Shown here piece after piece: positions 48,427 through 57,901 of a DNA stretch of 64,000 bases (its first letter is position 1; each line of letters opens with the position of its first letter). The translations under genes were made by a program, and so were the position numbers. The notes below the pieces were generated by a model that was given only the letters and a program-made list of their open reading frames with translations, was not told the DNA's origin and ran no database searches. Where the stretch lies: NCBI GenBank assembly GCA_040221175.1, contig JAVJVK010000004.1, forward strand, positions 124,001 to 188,000, given 5' to 3'. This DNA is from Phycisphaerales bacterium (lineage in GTDB: Bacteria; Planctomycetota; Phycisphaerae; Phycisphaerales; UBA1924).

Positions 48427-49518
48427 TCAGGGCACAATGTAGGGGTCTGACGAGGAGATGTTGAGGGCCTTGGCGGGCCAGGTTTCCAGCGTGTGCCGCC
48501 AGAAGAAGCCCGGATCCTTGAGCTGGGTGCCGGTCGGGAACCAGTAATCTGGGTTCACGGCATCCGCATCGGTCATCAATTCGACGTGGCCGTCGAAGAA
48601 GGCCAGGTGGCCGAGCACCTGGGTTGCCGCGACCTGGCTGGGATCGGTTTGCGTGCCATGGCGGAAGGCCATGCGTCGCATGTCCGGGTAATCGCGCGGG
48701 TTGGAGGTGTGCAGACGCCGCCCGTTCTCTCCCGGCGCGACGGTGCGATCGAGTTCCTTGCTCTCCCGCCACACGGCGCCCACGCCGCCGAAGGCGCCGC
48801 CGTACCAGCCCCCACCGCCGTCGCGCGTGCCCATCTCGTGGTCATAGTCGGGACGAACGTCGCGATATGCGTAGCGGTGTCCTTCGAACACGGCCACCTT
48901 CTGATACAGCGTGCCCACGTTGAACAGGTAGGGCTTGTAATTGCCTCGGTCCTGGCTCGGCCGGGGCTCGGTGCCGCCTTGCTCACGTCGCTTCGTGCTC
49001 GAGGTGAACTGGGTTGACATGTTGTAGCCGATCATGCGGCCCGTGGTCCAGAACGGCGTTTCGCTCGGATACGGCGCCGCCTGGAAGCGATTGGCCGGGC
49101 ACAGGTACTCATCGACCTGCTCGCGGTACCAATCAAAGCGCTCGGAGCGATAGCGTTCGCTGTCGCGCGTTCGCCCCTCGATGCGAACACCCTCGCCCGG
49201 ACCGATGCGCCCGTTCATGAACGCGAGCGGCCCCATCCAGTCCCACGTCTGCATGGCGATGCCGTTGTAGACGTCGAAGCTCGCGTCGTAGCCGCTGGTG
49301 TCCGGGCCGCCGACGATCATGTCCTTATATTCGTTGGCGTAGACGTTGATGCTCTGGACGATCGAGCGCAGGTTGCTGGCGCCCTTGACCTGTCGCGCCA
49401 CGCCGCGGGCCTGGCCCAGCGCCGGAAGCAGGATGCCGATAAGCAGGGCGATGATGGCGATGACCACCAGCAGCTCGATCAGCGTGAACCCCAGTCGCCC
49501 GCCTTGCCTTCGAAGCAT
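48427..49518 (-). CDS. type II secretion-like pseudopilin (prepilin-type N-terminal domain)
   Basis: A 363-residue protein starting [20 protein letters not shown]. The GFTLIE motif is the prepilin peptidase cleavage and methylation site, followed by a long hydrophobic helix. The globular part contains [20 protein letters not shown] and, near the end, [14 protein letters not shown], the DG-type motif of planctomycete pseudopilins. AGGAGGG precedes the ATG. Such proteins are abundant in Planctomycetes; their pili or pseudopili are little studied. Confidence 0.92.
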
Positions 49519-49626: not shown

Positions 49627-50952
49627 TTAACGCCCCCTTAATAACGATGGCTGTCGCGTGCTGTCGCTTGGGGTCCCGATTTCCAGCAATGTCGCGGCAG
49701 CTGCCCCGCGCCCGCTCCGGACAGCCCCTTCCATCGTCGCCGGCCAGCCCGTGGAGGTTGCATCGCCCGCGAGGAAGCAGCCCTGATCGGTCAGGCGCCC
49801 CGCTCCCGGGCGCGTTGGCTGGAATGATGGTGAAGCCGCAAAGGTGGCCCGTCGCTCGAGCACTGGCCGCGCCCATTCGACGCGGGCATTGCGAGCCTTG
49901 GGAAGGTATTGGGCAATCTCCCCGACGACGCGATCGGAGATCTCCTGTTCCCCCAGCCCGACCCAGGCATCGGCGGCGCTGACGACGGCGTGGATGCTCC
50001 GGCCATCGCCGTGTTTTGCGAAGACCCATTGCACCGAGCCGTCCACCAGTACGGCGTGCGGGACGTCGAGCACGGCACGGTCGTAGCGAACATGTACGCC
50101 GAGGATCGGGCTGAACGTCACGCCCTCGTACGGCGCGGACCCATCGACCGAGACCAAGCGATTGGCCGACGTGGGATCGAGGGCACAGATCACGGCGTCG
50201 CCTTCGAACGTGCTCCCATCGGCGCACGTGACCCGTCCGGGTTCGATCGAGGCGACGCGCGAACCGAGCGCGACACTGCCTCCTGCGTCCTCGAGGACGC
50301 CGAACATGGGATCGTAGAGTTCTCCAAGGGGAACCATCGGCATGCCGATCCGAGCGGCCTGCGCCCCGGTGAGCATTGCGCCCTGCACGACGTGCAAGGC
50401 GACTTCAGCACTGGCGCGGGCGGGCGCCAGGTTGCACGCGCTGATGATCAGCGGCTCCCAGAATCGTCGGATCGCCTGGGCGGTGGGACGCGTCTGATGC
50501 AGCCATTCGAGGAACGAGACGTCCGCGAGCTTCGTGCGGTCCGCCGTGGCCGCCAATCGAACGGCGCGCCCAATGCTGGCCTTGTCGGCGACCGAAAGGA
50601 AGCGTGCTCGAGCGAACGATGGTGCGAATGCCAGCGCGCCGGGCAGGGGCCATGCCCGGAGAACGCTGCGCCGGCCACCGGGCTGGATCCAGGTCTGTCG
50701 GTTGGTCCAGGCCATCTTGCCCGCCACGCCCAGTCGCTGCAGCAAGCCGATGTACACCTTGCACGCGCCCATCGCGACGTGCTGGCAGTTGTCCAGCACT
50801 TCACCGGTTCGAGCGTCATCGAACGAGCCCGCCCTTCCTCCCAGGCGACGGCGGGATTCCAGCAGCGAGACGGCGACGCCGTGATCGGCCAACATGACCG
50901 CGGCGGCGATACCCGCCAGTCCGCCACCAACGACAACGACCCGGGGCTGCAT
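49627..50952 (-). CDS. hpnE: hydroxysqualene dehydroxylase
   Basis: A 441-residue flavoprotein with the FAD motif VVVVGGGLAGIAAAVMLADHG (residues 5-25; first 20 as the Rossmann turn), ESRRRLGGRAGSF, and the late CFLAGDATSTGWPATMEGAVRSG. It belongs to the phytoene-desaturase-like amine oxidases. HpnE reduces hydroxysqualene to squalene, the last step from farnesyl diphosphate in the HpnCDE route. Its start lies 3 bases after the hpnD stop. Confidence 0.93.
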   Translation of the reverse strand: MQPRVVVVGGGLAGIAAAVMLADHGVAVSLLESRRRLGGRAGSFDDARTGEVLDNCQHVAMGACKVYIGLLQRLGVAGKMAWTNRQTWIQPGGRRSVLRAWPLPGALAFAPSFARARFLSVADKASIGRAVRLAATADRTKLADVSFLEWLHQTRPTAQAIRRFWEPLIISACNLAPARASAEVALHVVQGAMLTGAQAARIGMPMVPLGELYDPMFGVLEDAGGSVALGSRVASIEPGRVTCADGSTFEGDAVICALDPTSANRLVSVDGSAPYEGVTFSPILGVHVRYDRAVLDVPHAVLVDGSVQWVFAKHGDGRSIHAVVSAADAWVGLGEQEISDRVVGEIAQYLPKARNARVEWARPVLERRATFAASPSFQPTRPGAGRLTDQGCFLAGDATSTGWPATMEGAVRSGRGAAAATLLEIGTPSDSTRQPSLLRGR

Positions 50953-50955
50953 TGA

Positions 50956-51846
50956 TTACGCTAGCCGCCCGGCTGCGAGCACACGCCGACCCAGCGCGCC
51001 GGCGGCAATGCCCAGCTTCGCGCGCCCGCCGAGGGATGGAGACGCACCAGCCTGCCCCAGCCGCCGAGCCACCAGGCGGTAGGCTCGGGTCATCGCCCAC
51101 AAGGCCGGCCCCGCGTCCTTGCGAATCATGCCTTCGAGCGGCCCGCTCTCGTCGAGCATGTCCATGGCTTCGCGCACGAGGTCGTCCCGGACTCGTGCGT
51201 CCATGGGGCCCGCACCAAGCCTGCTGAGTCGCTCCGTAGGGACGTATCGCCTGTCGGCCCGCGCATCTTCCTCCAGATCGCGCGCGATGTTGATTCGCTG
51301 CAGTGCGCGCCCGCGCAAGCCGGCCAGGTCGCAGGCCCGGTCGAATTCCGCTTGGCGACGCATGCCCCAGATGGCGACGCAGCATCGCCCGACGTTGCCG
51401 GCTACCCGATCGCAGTAGGCCTCGAGTTGCTCGTCGGTCTCGAACTTTACCGTATGGAGATCTGTTCGAACGCCTTGCAGGAACGACTCGAACCATGCCA
51501 TCTTGAACTGGTGCTCCGCTGCGGCCCTGGCAAACGCGGGCCAGATCGCACCTCCGGGCTCACCGGAGAACGCCGCCTCGGTGCGCGCTTCGAATCGGTC
51601 GAGCATGGCAGCGCGTTGACCGGCGGGCGCCTGAGCGTCGGCGATGTCGTCGGCCAGGCGCATCCAGGCATACACGGCATGCATGGCGTCACGGCAGCGG
51701 GCGGGAGTCAGGCGGATTCCCACCGCGAAACTCGAGCCTGCCTGCGCGGTGATCTGACGACAGAACATCGTCGACGTGGTCAGATCAGCTTCGACCCCGT
51801 CGATCAGGGTGCTGATGTGGTCGAACTGGCTCGGGGATTCCGCCAC
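50956..51846 (-). CDS. hpnD: presqualene diphosphate synthase
   Basis: A 296-residue trans-isoprenyl diphosphate synthase of the squalene/phytoene type. Motifs: FCRQITAQAGSSFAVGIRL, the first Asp-rich LADDIADA, CCVAIWGM, and the second ARDLEEDARADR. HpnD joins two farnesyl diphosphates to presqualene diphosphate. The start is uncertain. A GTG at 51846 overlaps hpnC by 43 bases and gives a full-length N-terminus; an ATG at 51768 would give 270 residues and no overlap. Neither has a good ribosome binding site. Confidence 0.88.
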   Translation of the reverse strand: MAESPSQFDHISTLIDGVEADLTTSTMFCRQITAQAGSSFAVGIRLTPARCRDAMHAVYAWMRLADDIADAQAPAGQRAAMLDRFEARTEAAFSGEPGGAIWPAFARAAAEHQFKMAWFESFLQGVRTDLHTVKFETDEQLEAYCDRVAGNVGRCCVAIWGMRRQAEFDRACDLAGLRGRALQRINIARDLEEDARADRRYVPTERLSRLGAGPMDARVRDDLVREAMDMLDESGPLEGMIRKDAGPALWAMTRAYRLVARRLGQAGASPSLGGRAKLGIAAGALGRRVLAAGRLA

Positions 51847-52826
51847 GATGGAAAATATAGCGATGCAAGGCCACGCAACGCAATGCCCCCCTTGCCGATC
51901 CTGCCAACTTCGGGCCGTTTCCATAGGGTGATGCACCCCTGGCGTTCGATGCGATTCAGGGTCGCCCGCCCCCCTGCTGCCATCATCCCTATAAGAACTC
52001 CGAGTTTCCCCGGTACGTGGGAGGGAAGATTCCACCCACGTTGGTAAAGCTCTTCGATGCGGTGTATCAGCGGCCTGGTGGCCTTGATGAAGGCCAGCCG
52101 TGCCCGCGGGTCCTCGGGCGTGTGTGCCCAGGCGCGCAGGGTCTGAGCGTCGAGGCCGGTTTCGTGGGAAGGAAGGTACACCCGATCGCGATCGAGCAGG
52201 TCTCGCCGGACGTCCTGGAGGTGATTGGTGAGTTGCAGGGCCGTGCAGATCGCGTCGCTCATTTCCCATGCCGGGGCGCTGTCCGGGCTCTCGCTTGGCG
52301 GTCGGAGGCCGGCCATCATCAGGACCATGCGTCCGACCGGATCGGCGCTCAGCTTGCAGTAGCCCAGTAGTTGTTCCCAGGTTTCATAGCGGGTGAGTCT
52401 TTGGTCCTGTTCGAACGCCGAGATCAGCTTGTCGCACTCGCCCTTTGGAATGCGGTGGCGCTCGAGCGTTGGCCCGAGCGCCACAAGCACCGGGTGGCTC
52501 GGTCGTTCGGCGTGGAGTTCGTCTCGAAACCAAGACAGCAGTTCGAGCGCTCGCTGGCGCCTGGTCTCGGGGGCGACCTCCGGGCCCAGGGCTGGGTCGG
52601 TCTCGTCGCCCAGATCATCGGCCCAGCGGCAGAAGGTGTAGACCGCCGCGAAGTCTTCGATTAGTTCGGCTGGGAGCAGGCGGCCCAGCACCACGAAGTT
52701 CTCGCTCGCCCGGCGAGCGAAGGCGACGGCGTAGGCACGAGCGTCGGCCATAGCCACGGGGGAACACCCCGGGCCGAAGGAGGCCAGCATCTCGATGGGT
52801 GGTCGGGCTGGGTCCAGTCCGGTCAT
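51804..52826 (-). CDS. hpnC: squalene synthase HpnC (hydroxysqualene synthase)
   Basis: A 340-residue homologue of HpnD with FVVLGRLLPAELIEDFAAVY, the first Asp-rich motif RWADDLGDETD, GYCKLSADPVGRMVL and the second NHLQDVRRDLLDRDRVYLP. HpnC converts presqualene diphosphate to hydroxysqualene. It begins the hpnC-hpnD-hpnE operon. The ATG at 52826 lies in a CATG shared with a possible upstream start of ispH, with no clear Shine-Dalgarno. Confidence 0.92.
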   Translation of the reverse strand: MTGLDPARPPIEMLASFGPGCSPVAMADARAYAVAFARRASENFVVLGRLLPAELIEDFAAVYTFCRWADDLGDETDPALGPEVAPETRRQRALELLSWFRDELHAERPSHPVLVALGPTLERHRIPKGECDKLISAFEQDQRLTRYETWEQLLGYCKLSADPVGRMVLMMAGLRPPSESPDSAPAWEMSDAICTALQLTNHLQDVRRDLLDRDRVYLPSHETGLDAQTLRAWAHTPEDPRARLAFIKATRPLIHRIEELYQRGWNLPSHVPGKLGVLIGMMAAGGRATLNRIERQGCITLWKRPEVGRIGKGGIALRGLASLYFPSWRNPRASSTTSAP

Positions 52827-52852
52827 GGCGAACCAACCGTACGCAATCCACC

Positions 52853-52858
52853 TACAAT
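52853..52858 (+). promoter_or_regulatory. candidate -10 box for leaderless ispH
   Basis: TACAAT ends 5 bases before the GTG at 52864, with no ribosome binding site between. The -35 region is weak. It supports the GTG as the real start of ispH. Confidence 0.4.
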
Positions 52859-52863
52859 GCCTC

Positions 52864-53910
52864 GTGCGACTGATCCTCCCCAATCCACGCGGCTTCTGCG
52901 CCGGGGTCAGCATGGCCATCGACGTCGTGAACCAGGTGCTGGACCTGTGTCCGGGCGAGCCGGTGTACGTCTACCACGACATCGTGCACAACACCCACGT
53001 GGTGGAGCGCTTCAAGGCTCGCGGCGTTCGCTTCGTCGAGGACGTGTCGCAGGTGCCCGAGGAGTCCATCGTCGTCTTCAGCGCCCATGGCATTCCGCCT
53101 GCGGTCCGACGGCAAGCCCAGGCCCGGCAACTACGGATCATTGACGCAACGTGCCCGCTGGTGACCAAGGTGCACAACGAGGCGATCCGGTACGCCCGCC
53201 TTGGCTATCAGATCCTGCTCGTAGGCCACCGCAACCATCAGGAGATCATCGGCACGAGCGGGGAAGCGCCCGAAGCCACGCAGGTGGTCGAGAGCCCTGC
53301 AGACATCCCTCACCTGCAGATCGATGACCCGACCAAATTGGTCTATCTGACGCAGACGACGCTGAGTACGGACGATGCGGGCATCATCATCAATGCGCTG
53401 AAGGAAGCATTCCCGCATATCAAGGCCCCTCCGAGCGAGGACATCTGCTACGCGACCACAAACCGCCAGCACGCCGTACGAACGCTCGCGCCGATGTGCG
53501 ACCTGACGCTGGTGGTTGGCTCAACGCACAGCAGCAACAGCAAGCGGCTGGCGGAGATCAGCGATCATGCGGGCACGCCCGGCCGGCTGATCGACGACGC
53601 AAGCGAAATTGACCTTGCGTGGTTCCCGGATCCGTCGGCCACCGTGCTGGTCACCGCGGGGGCCAGTGCGCCCGAAGATCTGGTCGCGGGCGTCTGCCAG
53701 ATGCTGCTGGAACGCTTCGACGGCGACATCCGGACGTGCGACGTCTTCGAAGAGGACGTGTATTTCGCGCCTCCGGCCGGCCTGAAGCACATGATGCGAG
53801 AGCAGGGGATCGACCCAAAGAGTCGCGCCATCCGAGTCCGAACGCCCGAGGTGACGGCGTCGGCGTATGGGGCGACCGCGTTGACCATCAATGCCACCGG
53901 CGCCGGTTGA
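52864..53910 (+). CDS. ispH: 4-hydroxy-3-methylbut-2-enyl diphosphate reductase
   Basis: A 348-residue [4Fe-4S] enzyme. The three cluster cysteines lie in PRGFCAGVSMAI, DATCPLVTKVH and EDICYATTNRQ, and the substrate motif VGSTHSSNSKRL is intact. IspH makes isopentenyl and dimethylallyl diphosphate in the last step of the MEP pathway. I take the GTG at 52864 as the start because the homology begins at once (VRLILPNPRGFC). An in-frame ATG at 52825 would add 13 residues. It is divergent from hpnC, so isoprenoid precursors and squalene are made by neighbouring genes. Confidence 0.96.
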   Translation: MRLILPNPRGFCAGVSMAIDVVNQVLDLCPGEPVYVYHDIVHNTHVVERFKARGVRFVEDVSQVPEESIVVFSAHGIPPAVRRQAQARQLRIIDATCPLVTKVHNEAIRYARLGYQILLVGHRNHQEIIGTSGEAPEATQVVESPADIPHLQIDDPTKLVYLTQTTLSTDDAGIIINALKEAFPHIKAPPSEDICYATTNRQHAVRTLAPMCDLTLVVGSTHSSNSKRLAEISDHAGTPGRLIDDASEIDLAWFPDPSATVLVTAGASAPEDLVAGVCQMLLERFDGDIRTCDVFEEDVYFAPPAGLKHMMREQGIDPKSRAIRVRTPEVTASAYGATALTINATGAG

Positions 53911-53938: not shown

Positions 53939-54259
53939 TTATGCCTCGGTCTTTGGTGGCGCCGCCTGATCTCGGCCCTCGGCCTGATCGGCGATGGCCT
54001 TGAGCGCCCGTCCATTCATGAGTGGAATGCTGGTGCGGCCCGTGGTCAGGACGACGCGGACGTAGGGCTTACACATGCCGCAGCCCGTGCAGCAGCCGGT
54101 GCGTTCGCTCAGTTCTTCCTGGGTCAGGCCTTCTTCGCGGGCCATGCGTAGGAGCTTGTCGAACGGCTGATCGAAGCAGACGCACCGCTCGACTCTGACG
54201 CGCGAGGTGGGCGCGTCCAAGTCCGCAATCGTGGGTTGTCTTCCGTTGACTGGCGCCAT
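53939..54259 (-). CDS. Bfd-like [2Fe-2S] protein
   Basis: A 106-residue protein with four cysteines arranged as CVC ... TGCCTGCGMC (one extra Cys in the second cluster), the pattern of BFD-like [2Fe-2S] domains, preceded by RVERCVCFDQPFDKLL. In bacterioferritin-associated ferredoxin this domain passes electrons to release iron. Here it is a stand-alone protein of 106 residues with N- and C-terminal extensions. It follows the pseudopilin gene by 37 bases and may belong to the B12-riboswitch operon. It is convergent with ispH. Confidence 0.88.
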   Translation of the reverse strand: MAPVNGRQPTIADLDAPTSRVRVERCVCFDQPFDKLLRMAREEGLTQEELSERTGCCTGCGMCKPYVRVVLTTGRTSIPLMNGRALKAIADQAEGRDQAAPPKTEA

Positions 54260-54296
54260 GCGTTAGCCACACTATCGGCACTCGATGAACGATTTC

Positions 54297-55115
54297 TCAG
54301 CGCCACGACCGCCAATCGGGTATATAGCGAGGATCATTGTGGACCCCCACGGACCCGATGCCCTGCCCCGGCTGCGTGAGCCAATCCGCCGTGGCCCGAT
54401 AGGCTCTCGAACTGCCATCGGCATGCACCGCAAGGCATGAAGCGCCCGCACCCAGGCCGCCATGGCGGAAGCACGTAGTGGGATACTCGTTGTCCCGCCA
54501 ACGCCCGGCGCCGACGTAGAGCATGGGCGGATCGAGCAGCGCATTGCTCGTGGGCATCGCATGGGCGCCCCGGCTCATGAGCGTGTCCGCAAAGACCATC
54601 AGGTTCGATGGCTGGGCGATGGTGCTCAGCCGCTGATGCGGCCGGTGCTTGATGCCACGCGACCAGCCGGGCGTGTAGGCCGGGCTCAGAAAGTAGCCGT
54701 TGTAGCCGTAGGTGCTGTTAGGCGCTCTGGTCGCGCCCTGGTGCTCGTAGGTGCCCGGGCGCTGCGCCGGGCAGGCGTAGACGCCCACCTCACCGAGCCC
54801 GGCGTCGAGATAGGGCGAGAGCAGCCCGCGGCCATGATCGAGCGTTCCGCTCTGCGACCCGTCGGCGCCCCACCAGAAGATGTTGTCGCCCCCGCCGGTG
54901 TCGCGGTGGTCGGTGTAGGCAAGGGGCATGGCCACGCCCTGGTAGTCGCCGGCATACATGGCCCATCCGATGCCAAGTTGCCGCAGGTTGCTGGCGCACG
55001 CAGCGCCCCTGGCGGCATCTCGCGCGCCCGAGAGCGCCGGCAGCAGCACGCCGACGAGCGTGCCCACGATGGCGGTCACCACCAGAACCTCGATAAGCGT
55101 GAAGGCGCGTCGCAT
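54297..55115 (-). CDS. pseudopilin with prepilin-type N-terminal domain
   Basis: A 272-residue protein beginning [18 protein letters not shown], a prepilin cleavage motif followed by its hydrophobic helix. [20 protein letters not shown] matches pseudopilin linkers of Planctomycetes. The C-terminal part contains [22 protein letters not shown], a variant of the H-x9-DG motif. Its ATG overlaps the stop of the beta-propeller gene by one base (TGATG). It is the third gene after the cobalamin riboswitch. Confidence 0.9.
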
Positions 55116-56542
55116 CAGCACCCCGCGTCGAAGGCGTTCTGGAAGCACAGGAAGTCGAAGAGCGTCAGCGAACCGTCGCCATCGCAATCGGCGGCGAGAT
55201 CACCCGCGTCGAAGGCATTCTGGAACCCGAGGAAGTCGAAGATGGTCAAGGCGCCATCGCGATCGAAGTCGGCATAGCACGCCCCGCCCAGTGCGAACGC
55301 GGCCACGTGGTCGCTCCAGGCGCTGACGGCAACGCCCTGCGCAATGGCGGGCGATCCGCCGCCCAGGTCGCTCGCGCCAATGACCAGTTCCGGTCCGCGA
55401 GGGTCTGCATCGAGATCCAGCAGCGCAAGGCCGCCCGCGGGCGAGCCGACGAGTATCGCGAAGCCATCGGGCGTTTCGAGCACCGCGGGCTGGTGGTCCC
55501 AGCCGCCCAGGGCGAGGTACTCGCCCGGATCGATGAACCCGTCGCCGTTCAGGTCTTCCCACGTGGCGCTGGCGAGATCCCAGAGCCGCTGGGCCGAGGT
55601 GCCCAGATCCTCATAGACCTGCACGGTGGGCAGCGATCCAAAACCCGCCAGCCCGGCCGAGAGCACGATACGACCATCGCCCAGGGGAACGGGCATCGCG
55701 TCGGTGCGCTCGGTGGGGACGGACCATTGCTCGCCGCCGGTGGCCGCATCGAGTTTGACCATGGCGCTGTTGTCGCGGCCGCCGCTGAACGCATAGCTGG
55801 CGGCGTAGACCGCGCCGTCGTGGTAGACCGTGCCCCCGAAGAAGCCCAGGGGCGTGGGCGTCGTCCAGAGTTCGCCCGCGGCATCGAACGCCCTGATGGC
55901 GCCATCGGTCAGCGCGACGAAGCTGCGCAGGCCGTACAACGCCGGCGAGGCGCCCGAGGCCGAACCGATGGAGGGCTCCAGCAGGATCTCGCCGGTGTCA
56001 AGGTCGAGCGTGACCAGCCGGGCCGCACCGCCGAACGGGTCGTACGTGGTCAGGCGGACCACGCCCGTACGTTCCTCGACGGCCGGGGACGCGTTGACCA
56101 CGCTCTGGCCCAGCGACGTGCGCCAAGCCTCGGCTCCACTGGAAAGATCGAGCGCGACGGCCACCGAGCGCGTCGCGACGATTACCAGGCCGCTCTCGCT
56201 GATCGCCGGGCTCGACCATGACGAGAACACGGGCGAGACGATGGGCGATCGCCACAGCTCATCACCGGTGGCCGCGTCGAGCCCCACGGCGTGCGCACTG
56301 CCGGCGATGTCGCCCAGCACCACGACGACACCGTTGGAAGAGATCACCGGCGTCGCCTGCGCGAAGGGCTCGAACAGGCCCTGGGCGTCGTACACCCAGC
56401 GTGGGTCGGCCAGGTCGGGCATCGCAGATTGGACGGCCGACACGCGGGCGGGCGTGCGGCCGGCATGGGTCCAGGCGTCTGTCCAGGCGTCCTGGGCAAG
56501 CGTGCTGCCGGCAACAACAAGAAGAGTAATCGCGCTGCGCAC
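55115..56542 (-). CDS. secreted PQQ-like beta-propeller protein with GC-type dockerin
   Basis: A 475-residue exported protein that starts at a GTG directly after the TAA of the preceding gene. The signal peptide is short ([17 protein letters not shown]). The body has PQQ-type propeller repeats: [65 protein letters not shown]. The C-terminal dockerin pair ([36 protein letters not shown]) ends in Gly-Cys, with extra cysteines in the second repeat. A propeller in a B12-controlled operon recalls BtuG, the B12-binding propeller lipoprotein of Bacteroides, but homology to it is not shown here. Confidence 0.9.
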
Positions 56543-57433
56543 TTAGCACCCCCCCGCGAACGCGTTGGTGAAGCACAGGAAGTCGAAGATGTCCAGGCGT
56601 CCATTGGCGTCGCAGTCGGCCCGGCCATCCCCATCGTTGAACAGGTTCTGGAACTCGAGGAAGTCGAAGACCTCGAGCACGCCGTTGCCATCGATGTCGG
56701 CGGCGCAGGCGGCCCGCACGACCGACACCGCGTCGATGTCGGGCGTCGCACCGTCGCCGGCGGTGATGCGGACGAAGTTGACCTCGAACAGGCCCGCATC
56801 GGCGATGTCGATGCCTACGCCGCCGCCCGAGCCGTCGTACGCGGCCAGCAGTTCATCCCAGTCCATGCCGTCGGGGTCGATCGCCGGATCGACGGGCAGG
56901 CGGAAGTCGCTGGGCTCATCGCCGCGCACTTCGGTGAAGGGCGTCGCCAGATCGAGGTAGCCCAGCGTTGGGAAGTGGCTTTCGGCCATGGGCGGCACGG
57001 GGAAGAACTCGACGCCGTCCTGGGAGACCTCGATCGCCCCGCCGTCGAAGAACGTGCCGCCAACCACGCCCGCGGGGAAGGCCGCGTCGATGTAGCCGCC
57101 GTTGTGAAAGACGATCAGGTCGACGCCGAAGGGGTTGGTGGCCGCGTCGATGGCCGGCGTGCCCAGGCGCAGCGTCAGGCTGCCGCCCGCGCCGATGGTG
57201 ACGACCTCTGACCCAAGGAACGGCGGGTTGAAGGGCGTGACCACGCCGGGGAACGAGCCCACGCCGGTGTAGCGGGCCGGCTCGCCCAATGCGCTTGCGG
57301 GATCATCGAAGCCCGCGGGCACGTCGACGCCCGGCGCGTACTGGACGACCTCGGCCGCGAAGGGATCGAGCAGGCCCTGGGCGCTGGCGATGGCGGAAAC
57401 AGACGACACAACGACAACAGCAATGGTGCGCAT
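56543..57433 (-). CDS. secreted surface protein with GC-type dockerin, first gene after a cobalamin riboswitch
   Basis: A 296-residue exported protein (signal peptide ends AIASAQ). The body has VQYAPGVDVPAGFDDPASAL, LGSEVVTIGAGGSLTLRLG, DLIVFHNGGYIDAAF and AIEVSQDGVEFFPVPP. This resembles 'cell surface protein' families (GxGGSITL...DFIVFEN...EVSxDGxxF) that I recall near cobalamin transporters in Bacteroidetes. The dockerin pair (CAADIDGNGVLEVFDFLEF, ADCDANGRLDIFDFLCF) ends in Gly-Cys. AAGGAG precedes the ATG at 57433. The B12 riboswitch upstream points to a role in cobalamin capture or in a process B12 represses. Confidence 0.88.
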   Translation of the reverse strand: MRTIAVVVVSSVSAIASAQGLLDPFAAEVVQYAPGVDVPAGFDDPASALGEPARYTGVGSFPGVVTPFNPPFLGSEVVTIGAGGSLTLRLGTPAIDAATNPFGVDLIVFHNGGYIDAAFPAGVVGGTFFDGGAIEVSQDGVEFFPVPPMAESHFPTLGYLDLATPFTEVRGDEPSDFRLPVDPAIDPDGMDWDELLAAYDGSGGGVGIDIADAGLFEVNFVRITAGDGATPDIDAVSVVRAACAADIDGNGVLEVFDFLEFQNLFNDGDGRADCDANGRLDIFDFLCFTNAFAGGC

Positions 57434-57435
57434 CG

Positions 57436-57471
57436 CGCACTCCTTCCGTGCCGGCTCTTCACCGGCGTGCG
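57436..57471 (-). promoter_or_regulatory. hairpin that can mask the ribosome binding site of the riboswitch-controlled gene
   Basis: On the minus strand CGCAC...GTGCG and GCCGG...CCGGC nest into one hairpin whose lower part encloses the AAGGAG just before the ATG at 57433. This could be the expression platform of the upstream aptamer, acting on translation, although about 170 bases separate them. Confidence 0.45.
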
Positions 57472-57639
57472 TCCCGATTCGCGCGGGACGGCCCCGGACC
57501 CGTGCACGCGCTGCCATCACGGCACAACGCGGGCGGTCCATCCGTCGCTTCTCGCTTGGGTTCACCTGGCACGGCAGCGCGCACGCCCGGGGCACACGAA
57601 CTCGCACCGCGCCACCCCGTACGCGAGGGCGACAACGCA

Positions 57640-57835
57640 GGCTCGTGGCAGGTCTTCCGGCTCCGGGCCCGATCCTCGGCTGCCTTCCCGCGAGGGAGTC
57701 AGAACTCCCCGCAGTGGCGTGCTCCCCGGCTCGATTCGACGAACAAATCAGTCTGGGGGCCGAGGTCGGAAGCTGCCCGTTACGGCGGCGCGTCCGCGGT
57801 GGCTTCTCACCACGCTTCCCTCTTCGCTTCGGAAC
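57640..57835 (-). promoter_or_regulatory. cobalamin (B12) riboswitch
   Basis: The minus strand carries the aptamer elements in order: AGGGAAGCGTGGTGAGAAGC with CACCGCGG (family form GGGAA..GGTG..AA.CC), GCCACTG, CGGGAAGGC, and the B12-box end GAGCCGGAAGACCTGCC. Spacing and order fit an adenosylcobalamin-type aptamer of about 195 nt. It lies between a promoter (57873-57901) and a dockerin surface-protein gene. Riboswitches of this class switch genes off when cobalamin is plentiful. The exact ends are estimated. The remaining part of this 512-base gap is the leader between aptamer and start codon. Confidence 0.88.
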
Positions 57836-57872
57836 AGCCAGCGGCCAATCCCGAAGAACCATGAGCGCCTAG

Positions 57873-57901
57873 AGATTACCCCCAGCGGGCATGGGGATCA
57901 A
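57873..57901 (-). promoter_or_regulatory. promoter of the cobalamin-riboswitch transcript
   Basis: TTGATC and TAATCT are separated by 17 bases on the minus strand. Transcription would begin near 57866, about 30 bases before the aptamer. Confidence 0.55.

Follow-up and report, generated by a model that had tools for sequence, protein, structure and literature searches.

A cobalamin-riboswitch operon of a Phycisphaerales bacterium encodes a relative of the BtuH domain and a distinct pilin, and is a candidate system for vitamin B12 acquisition

Background

The genome of a Phycisphaerales bacterium (GenBank assembly GCA_040221175.1, here G000) carries an operon of four genes behind a cobalamin riboswitch, and we propose that it is a vitamin B12 (cobamide) acquisition system that is induced by B12 starvation and works without a TonB/BtuB receptor. 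We put the probability of this reading, together with the mechanism set out below, at roughly 0.78. The operon lies at positions 53939 to 57901, on the minus strand, of the stretch that we analysed (the window: 64,000 nucleotides, positions 124,001 to 188,000 of contig JAVJVK010000004.1). Its genes encode a secreted surface protein (A), a secreted beta-propeller (B), a type IV pilin-like protein (C) and a small iron-sulphur protein (D). An initial annotation, made from the letters of the window, had suggested a B12-capture role for this operon by analogy with BtuG, which works with BtuB in Bacteroides. The capture role is now well supported by sequence comparisons and structural models, namely the homology of A to BtuH, the conservation of the riboswitch-linked block in the family, a B12 need in a genome with no CobS, MetE or TonB plug match, and the recurrence of the pilin in B12 loci; the BtuG analogy is not supported for the window propeller, and a partnership with BtuB is unlikely here.

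To our knowledge, outer-membrane import of B12 in Gram-negative bacteria has been described only for TonB-dependent BtuB systems. Papers are cited below by their PMC numbers. BtuH, BtuG and BtuJ are known in Bacteroides (PMC10404256, PMC8941943, PMC12751083). In the open-access literature we found no paper on BtuH in Planctomycetes, none that links a cobalamin riboswitch with a pilin in Planctomycetes or DUF1559 with cobalamin, and none on type IV pili in TonB-independent cobalamin uptake. The relation of the 296-residue protein A, first described as a dockerin protein, to the BtuH domain is new.

Results

A conserved operon behind a B12 riboswitch

The aptamer had been recognised from the sequence alone, and Infernal bears it out: cmscan places the cobalamin riboswitch RF00174 at 57630..57878 on the minus strand (69 bits, where 31.5 is the gathering score; E 6.3e-15, model positions 1-189 of 189). 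It is the sole RF00174 match in the 3.44 Mb genome, and the operon is thus the only one under a B12 riboswitch in G000. In this riboswitch class, binding of B12 by the aptamer switches the genes off. Downstream, all on the minus strand, lie A (56543..57433, 296 residues), B (55115..56542, 475 residues), C (54297..55115, 272 residues) and D (53939..54259, 106 residues). The GTG start of B directly follows the stop of A, B and C overlap in TGATG, and 37 nt separate C from D, so that the spacing of the four genes is as first described. The mechanically called open reading frames (ORFs) are longer, extending A to 57862 and C to 55187; the inner ATG was chosen for each because a Shine-Dalgarno-like GGAAGGAG precedes A, and because these starts give a leader (A) and a prepilin signal (C).

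RF00174 was found in 150 of 163 genomes of the same family, 145 with one copy and 5 with two. Eighty loci fetched from these riboswitch genomes, together with the window, make up the 81 family loci. A tblastn search with the window proteins alone recovered A in 78 of them, C in 73, D in 51 and B in 48, the window included. Profiles found A in 73, a propeller in 73, C in 72 and D in 54 of those 74 loci whose downstream sequence reaches 4.2 kb or more; the profiles for this count and for the phylum counts were trained on these family loci and on the named loci. The propeller is one of two kinds. The window has the order A-B-C-D. A second form, X-A'-C-D, begins with a YncE-like propeller (X) and continues with a longer counterpart of A (A'). 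One of these two orders, with D optional, is found exactly in 67 of the 81 loci, six are cut by a contig end, and eight differ, some of them perhaps as artefacts of stop-to-stop frames. Chance co-occurrence of the operon genes was considered and rejected, since the block recurs across genera while the adjoining ispH and hflX do not; these two neighbours were seen only in the window and three loci of the same genus, and general synteny is therefore no explanation for the block.

Beyond the family, a scan of named genomes with A, using a search pattern in which D105 of A was fixed and N111 left free, gave 321 relatives. Among the best 80, of which 65 carry planctomycete names and the other 15 are metagenome-assembled genomes, pilin C lies downstream in 78, D in 40 and B in 10, and a third form, riboswitch-A-C-D without B, appears. 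Median gaps, with starts chosen by script, are -4 nt from A to C (65 loci) and 16 nt from C to D (39 loci). The association was also tested in reverse, on 12 named loci that had been fetched by A and were picked as having no simple B12-box motif or only a distant one (L168, also without the motif, was outside the 12; L143, L155 and L163 have little upstream sequence). RF00174 lies upstream on the same strand in 11 of the 12, within 165 nt in 10 and at 775 nt in L134.

Protein A is a distant relative of the BtuH domain

By sequence profiles and a structural model, A is a diverged and remote homologue of BtuH, a B12-binding domain known from Bacteroides. The link runs through A', whose profile matches the Protein Data Bank (PDB) entries 8blw_B (BtuG1, E 2.7e-36) and 7biz_A (BtuH2, E 1e-28) far above all other matches, while hhalign joins the A and A' families at 99.9% (E 2.9e-31). 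The AlphaFold2 model of the window A (predicted local distance difference test score, pLDDT, 91) leads VIA-align to the same two structures, first 7biz (Z 10.8, root-mean-square deviation 3.3 over 141 aligned residues) and then 8blw (Z 9.8). BtuH2 binds B12 through its BtuH domain (PMC8941943), and the C-terminal extension of BtuG1 is a BtuH domain (PMC10404256). The BtuH2 contact residues were read off the A' profile alignment with an inferred numbering offset of 100, under which seven named residues fall on the right letters. In A', the equivalents of Gln333, Asn399 and Tyr510 are kept in 25/26, 26/26 and 22/26 sequences. In A, the Asn399-equivalent is N111, kept in 44/47 and 69/69 sequences. 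The earlier statement that no gene of the operon encodes a known B12 protein consequently needs revision, because A is related to a B12-binding domain. By this homology A itself may bind B12, and the BtuH-like A is a likelier B12 binder than the propeller.

The comparison with BtuH2 (BT_1956 of Bacteroides thetaiotaomicron, PDB 7BIZ) shows both likeness and distance. Both are surface jelly-roll proteins at a cobalamin-riboswitch locus with a conserved Asn at the position of Asn399; A, however, is shorter and diverged, keeps only part of the alignable pocket residues, ends in a dockerin tail, lacks PKD domains and is found with a pilin and without BtuB. Elsewhere, the gene directly behind a riboswitch at L200:1322-3118 encodes a planctomycete protein that combines a BtuH-type domain with an N-terminus that looks PKD-like by eye, which is the BtuH2 layout.

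Both A and B have leader-like N-termini and surface tails. Their designation as dockerin proteins holds for the NCBIfam GC-type dockerin NF041540 (36.5 bits for A and 35.5 for B, cut-off 29), whereas Pfam Dockerin_1 stays below its own cut-off on both; this tail is the only Pfam or NCBIfam domain in A. Of 50 A proteins from family loci, 40 have a PEP-CTERM-like tail by a rough pattern. Across family loci the tails of A and B alternate, by the same rough pattern, between GC-type dockerin, other dockerin-like and PEP-CTERM-like types. That tail types vary on the same protein families suggests that the window dockerin is a sorting or anchoring tail and not part of a cellulosome.

B12 need and uptake routes

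The assembly of G000 is 100% complete. It has four matches to B12-domain proteins, and the identified one is MetH; at L246:4374-7998, on contig C4 of G000, MetH is split into two overlapping ORFs, a methyltransferase half and a B12 half. Neither the MetE domain nor CobS was found in any of 13 genomes, G000 among them, for searches in which 10 of 14 controls were positive for each. G000 should thus be the genome of a B12 user, and probably of a non-producer, as far as one synthesis marker (CobS) can tell. A Phycisphaera metagenome-assembled genome has likewise been reported without MetE and B12 synthesis genes (PMC7029141).

The TonB plug domain is absent from G000 and from the whole first set of 13 family genomes, with 6 of 8 other genomes of the order positive. 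Over the whole family it is absent from 139 of 163 genomes (98 of 112 among the good ones), and in the 24 genomes that have one, the contig with the riboswitch carries no plug gene. FecCD-type inner-membrane permeases were found in 21 of 21 genomes, two of them in G000, and secretins in 13 of 13, six in G000. With MetH present and no MetE, CobS or TonB plug match, import of B12 without BtuB is probable. As B12 has too large a mass for general porins and no plug was found, an outer-membrane route other than BtuB is likely, and the idea that the surface proteins work with BtuB is improbable here. The general porin limit is stated as about 600 Da in PMC5394234. The operon offers named candidates for B12 import in a family whose members mostly lack TonB plugs yet carry the riboswitch, and the genomes tested appear B12-dependent. 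With it the BtuH domain is seen outside the gut Bacteroidetes that PMC8941943 surveyed, and a pilin subfamily is linked to one defined small nutrient.

The pilin belongs to a subfamily that follows B12 riboswitches

Protein C scores above cut-off with N_methyl (PF07963; 22.4 vs 21.2 bits), TIGR02532 (23.2 vs 16.3 bits) and the DUF1559 family PF07596, and its N-terminus resembles GspG-type pseudopilins. With a prepilin signal and, in the predicted structure, a long N-terminal helix (residues 7-57), it is like the type IV pilins and type II secretion pseudopilins of the DUF1559, H-X9-DG group; it differs in sitting in a B12-riboswitch operon and in forming a separate subfamily by score, clustered on a tree. 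The structural model as a whole (pLDDT 73) gave only weak pilin matches, with a Foldseek E of about 1 and a VIA-align Z of at best 3.2. A further pilin-like stretch lies outside the operon, at window positions 49234-49500 on the minus strand.

As judged from sequence comparison, C is a member of a distinct pilin subfamily whose genes stand behind B12 riboswitches in other parts of the phylum as well. A profile of the riboswitch-linked pilins, which contains C itself, has 39 matches in G000, with C best at 228 bits and the next at 85. When linked pilins from other families and classes were held out of the profile, 10 of 11 scored 163-204 bits and the eleventh (L217) 85, against at most 115 bits for 28 other pilins; over its length, none of the held-out sequences in this range exceeds 41% identity to a training row. 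In the pilin tree the linked pilins cluster, requiring 4 changes compared with 23.5 in shuffles, and form four well-supported groups with L217 apart. Five rows labelled as paralogues in linked loci were taken to be the linked copies themselves under another start or length filter and were dropped before the tree was built. A single origin of all B12-linked pilins is possible under this tree, with its four groups, but not shown by it.

For the phylum, 39 riboswitch loci were picked among the best matches listed where the contig left ample room; they are of unequal length and mutually related. A TonB plug occurs in 13, pilin C in 11 (the L217 pilin among them being the weak one, at 85 bits) and both in none, which has P 0.0046 if the loci were independent and, as they are related, serves as a guide only. 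Among the genomes of the 11 pilin loci, five (G353, G424, G440, G448 and G185) are without any plug.

At several of these loci the neighbours of the pilin belong to families connected with B12. L214 encodes a DUF4465 protein (E 2e-56), an A-like gene, pilin C and a BtuF-like protein (PF01497), and L216 and L217 encode DUF4465, A-like and pilin genes. Mucisphaera is a planctomycete. A DUF4465 protein of Mucisphaera is among those examined in PMC13398666, and DUF4465 proteins are reported B12 binders (PMC13398666); the BtuJ/DUF4465 family (PF14717) has an augmented jelly-roll that binds B12 (PMC12751083, PMC13398666). The jelly-roll B12 binders thus adjoin A-like and pilin C genes in L214, L216 and L217, whereas the window A has no match to PF14717 (DUF4465). 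In L197, L198, L202, L204, L205, L210 and L219, pilin C is the first gene after the riboswitch, with no match to A-, B- or X-type profiles downstream in the fetched stretch.

The gene content of these last loci was read by eye for L202, L204, L205, L210 and L219; L198 was scanned with profiles and has the pilin, an ATP-pyrophosphatase, DUF6580 and a BtuF-like protein. In another planctomycete family, L198, L202, L204, L210 and L219 share the riboswitch, the pilin and a small Cys-rich lipoprotein-like ORF. Most of the five then have a diphthamide-synthase-like ATP-pyrophosphatase and a BtuF-like protein, together with a membrane protein of the DUF6580 family, seen in L198 and, by eye, in L219 and L210. 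The BtuF-like protein of the L198-type cluster has no obvious signal peptide, and the cluster is a second, different B12 cluster. The names BtuC/BtuD-like, BluB-like, CobQ-like, NrdD-like, MetE-like and PKD-like for ORFs at the phylum loci were given by eye; among them are NrdD-like genes behind the riboswitch in L212 and L213 and a MetE-like gene in L228, apparently B12-independent isozymes.

Propellers and the Bfd-like protein

Protein B is a pyrroloquinoline quinone (PQQ)/BamB-type propeller (PF13360, PQQ_2, 57 bits). Its family profile matches BamB, tetrathionate hydrolase, PQQ enzymes and designed propellers at E up to 0.001, with no BtuG among them, and the comparison of the window propeller with BtuG had to be given up. 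X was likewise rejected as a BtuG: no BtuG match appeared at E up to 0.1, and its best matches are hydrazine synthase and designed propellers. The relationship between B and X does not go beyond the propeller level (hhalign 88.8%). What the operon shares with BtuG1 (PDB 8BLW) is that a propeller and a BtuH-like domain occur together, and the gene order X-A' is the domain order of BtuG1; the difference is that the operon has two separate proteins, with a PQQ/BamB-type propeller in the window and an X that has no BtuG match.

The assignment of D to Bfd fell short with a single sequence (PF04324, Fer2_BFD, 21.6 bits against a cut-off of 26) and stood with the family profile, which matches the Bfd structures 6e6r and 4e6k at E of about 1e-4. 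The four Cys of the CxC...CxxC pattern are invariant (36/36 aligned), and by eye there is no signal peptide. With bacterioferritin-associated ferredoxin (Bfd), D shares the profile match and this [2Fe-2S] pattern; unlike it, D sits in a B12-riboswitch operon and has an extra conserved tail.

Discussion

We propose that the operon is off when B12 is plentiful and bound by the aptamer. When B12 is scarce, A would be exported, anchored at the surface by its exchangeable sorting tail, and would bind B12 through its BtuH-like jelly-roll; binding is proposed because of the BtuH homology and the retained Asn399-equivalent. The propeller may act beside A, since a propeller and a BtuH domain are fused in BtuG1. 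Pilin C, in a pilus or pseudopilus, would display, export or pull B12-loaded proteins towards a secretin-type outer-membrane pore, after which B12 could reach MetH through a FecCD-type ATP-binding cassette importer. The cytosolic Bfd-like D might, speculatively, supply electrons for processing or re-reducing the incoming corrinoid. That a pilus moves B12 across the outer membrane is what we infer for this step. Dextran has been reported on pili-like fibres of planctomycete cells, with the speculation that macromolecules are taken up by way of these fibres and crateriform complexes (PMC5394234); a B12-regulated pilin fits this picture but proves nothing. A wider version, in which surface BtuH-like receptors pass B12 to a dedicated B12-regulated pilus or pseudopilus and on to a secretin-type or crateriform complex, as a TonB-independent route widespread in Planctomycetota that replaces BtuB where TonB receptors are missing, is offered tentatively and we consider it doubtful.

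Several observations weigh against the proposed acquisition system. For A, the family profile alone gave no match in the PDB; the next VIA-align matches, PAPP-A and the fucose-lectin/CBM32 jelly-rolls, follow closely at Z 8-9.3; Foldseek with the A model returned PAPP-A, CBM32 and other jelly-rolls at low TM-scores, BtuH being absent among the 50 matches listed; and the BtuH link is drawn from the A' bridge and the VIA-align comparison. Trp577 of BtuH2 is unconserved in A', and the Gln333 and Tyr510 regions find no confident alignment in A, so that only part of the BtuH2 contacts is kept. The riboswitch was not seen in 13 of 163 family genomes, nor at gathering score in L124, one of the 12 loci of the reverse test. 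As B is present in 10 of the 80 named loci, it is not core, and it is no BtuG; D was unseen in 20 of 74 family and 40 of 80 named loci; and none of the operon genes was recognisable as encoding a pilus motor. A TonB plug is present in 24 of 163 family genomes, and the plug model may miss divergent receptors. Six of the 11 pilin-locus genomes have plugs elsewhere (seven in G195, eight in G410 and one each in G416, G375, G271 and G326), from which it follows that plug loss is unnecessary for the pilin to be present. For the Phycisphaera bin mentioned above, transport genes including outer-membrane receptors are stated, in general terms for non-producing bins, in PMC7029141. Both the binding of B12 and the B12 response of the operon are predictions from sequence and models.

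The rival that deserves most attention keeps B12 acquisition and limits the pilin to export: the pseudopilin would adapt a type II secretion-like machine for A and B, and B12 would enter through an unrelated pore. The GspG-like N-terminus of C, the leader-like N-termini and surface tails of A and B and the six secretins of G000 all suit this, and we regard it as possible, if considerably less probable than a pilin with a part in uptake. Against it stand the seven phylum loci in which pilin C leads the genes behind the riboswitch and the fetched stretch downstream gives no A, B or X match; there the pilin is not just a helper for A. It is unlikely, by contrast, that A, perhaps with B, alone matters for B12 and that C and D are passengers on the transcript. 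The patchy presence of D in family and named loci speaks for such a view, but C was found in 72 of 74 family loci and 78 of 80 named loci, and the scores of the held-out pilins and their clustering on the tree set the B12-linked pilins apart from other pilins.

Other explanations give up B12 acquisition itself. The surface proteins could bind another ligand, a carbohydrate or metal, for instance in attaching to B12-producing algae or bacteria, with B12 control as a proxy signal; CBM32 and fucose lectins are among the jelly-roll matches of A, and pilins and dockerin-type tails would suit adhesion. BtuH domains are nevertheless the two best structural matches of A and are joined to it by a sequence bridge, the phosphate-contacting Asn is kept in 69/69 sequences, and in other classes an A-like gene lies beside known B12-uptake families, which makes this account improbable. 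More remote still, at the bottom of our ranking, is the idea that at low B12 the operon replaces some function that otherwise needs the vitamin, in the way that MetE or B12-independent ribonucleotide reductases do elsewhere. The isozyme-like genes read by eye at L228, L212 and L213 show the kind of locus that this would need; here, by contrast, the operon encodes a pilin (C) and, in A, a jelly-roll that has a B12 binder among its relatives; genes related to these lie beside those for DUF4465 and BtuF-like proteins, and the identified B12-domain protein of the genome is MetH, with no MetE.

Promoter, leader and neighbouring sequence

The promoter that had been read from the sequence, TTGATC-N17-TAATCT, is present at 57873..57901 (minus strand), and an equivalent site is conserved 5' of the aptamer in relatives. 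TTGA[CT]-N16-18-TAnnnT stands immediately 5' of the aptamer in 56 of the 81 family loci, the window included, compared with 1 in 15,471 random positions of the same loci, and TTGAT[CT]-N17-TAnnCT is present in 7 of 7 genus-level loci (again with the window), although a plain sigma-70 scan gave no promoter sites, TTGATC-N17-TAATCT being too weak or too far from consensus for it. Because the first aptamer bases overlap the -10 box, transcription is expected to start a few bases inside the Rfam match. The leader between aptamer and gene A, which contains the Shine-Dalgarno-like stretch, spans 57434..57629 on the minus strand; folding it in search of an expression platform gave a z of 0.24, no better than shuffles. 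Outside the operon, at 49627-52919 on the minus strand, phytoene/squalene synthase-like ORFs and a phytoene-desaturase-like oxidoreductase (by eye) may form a hopanoid-precursor cluster.

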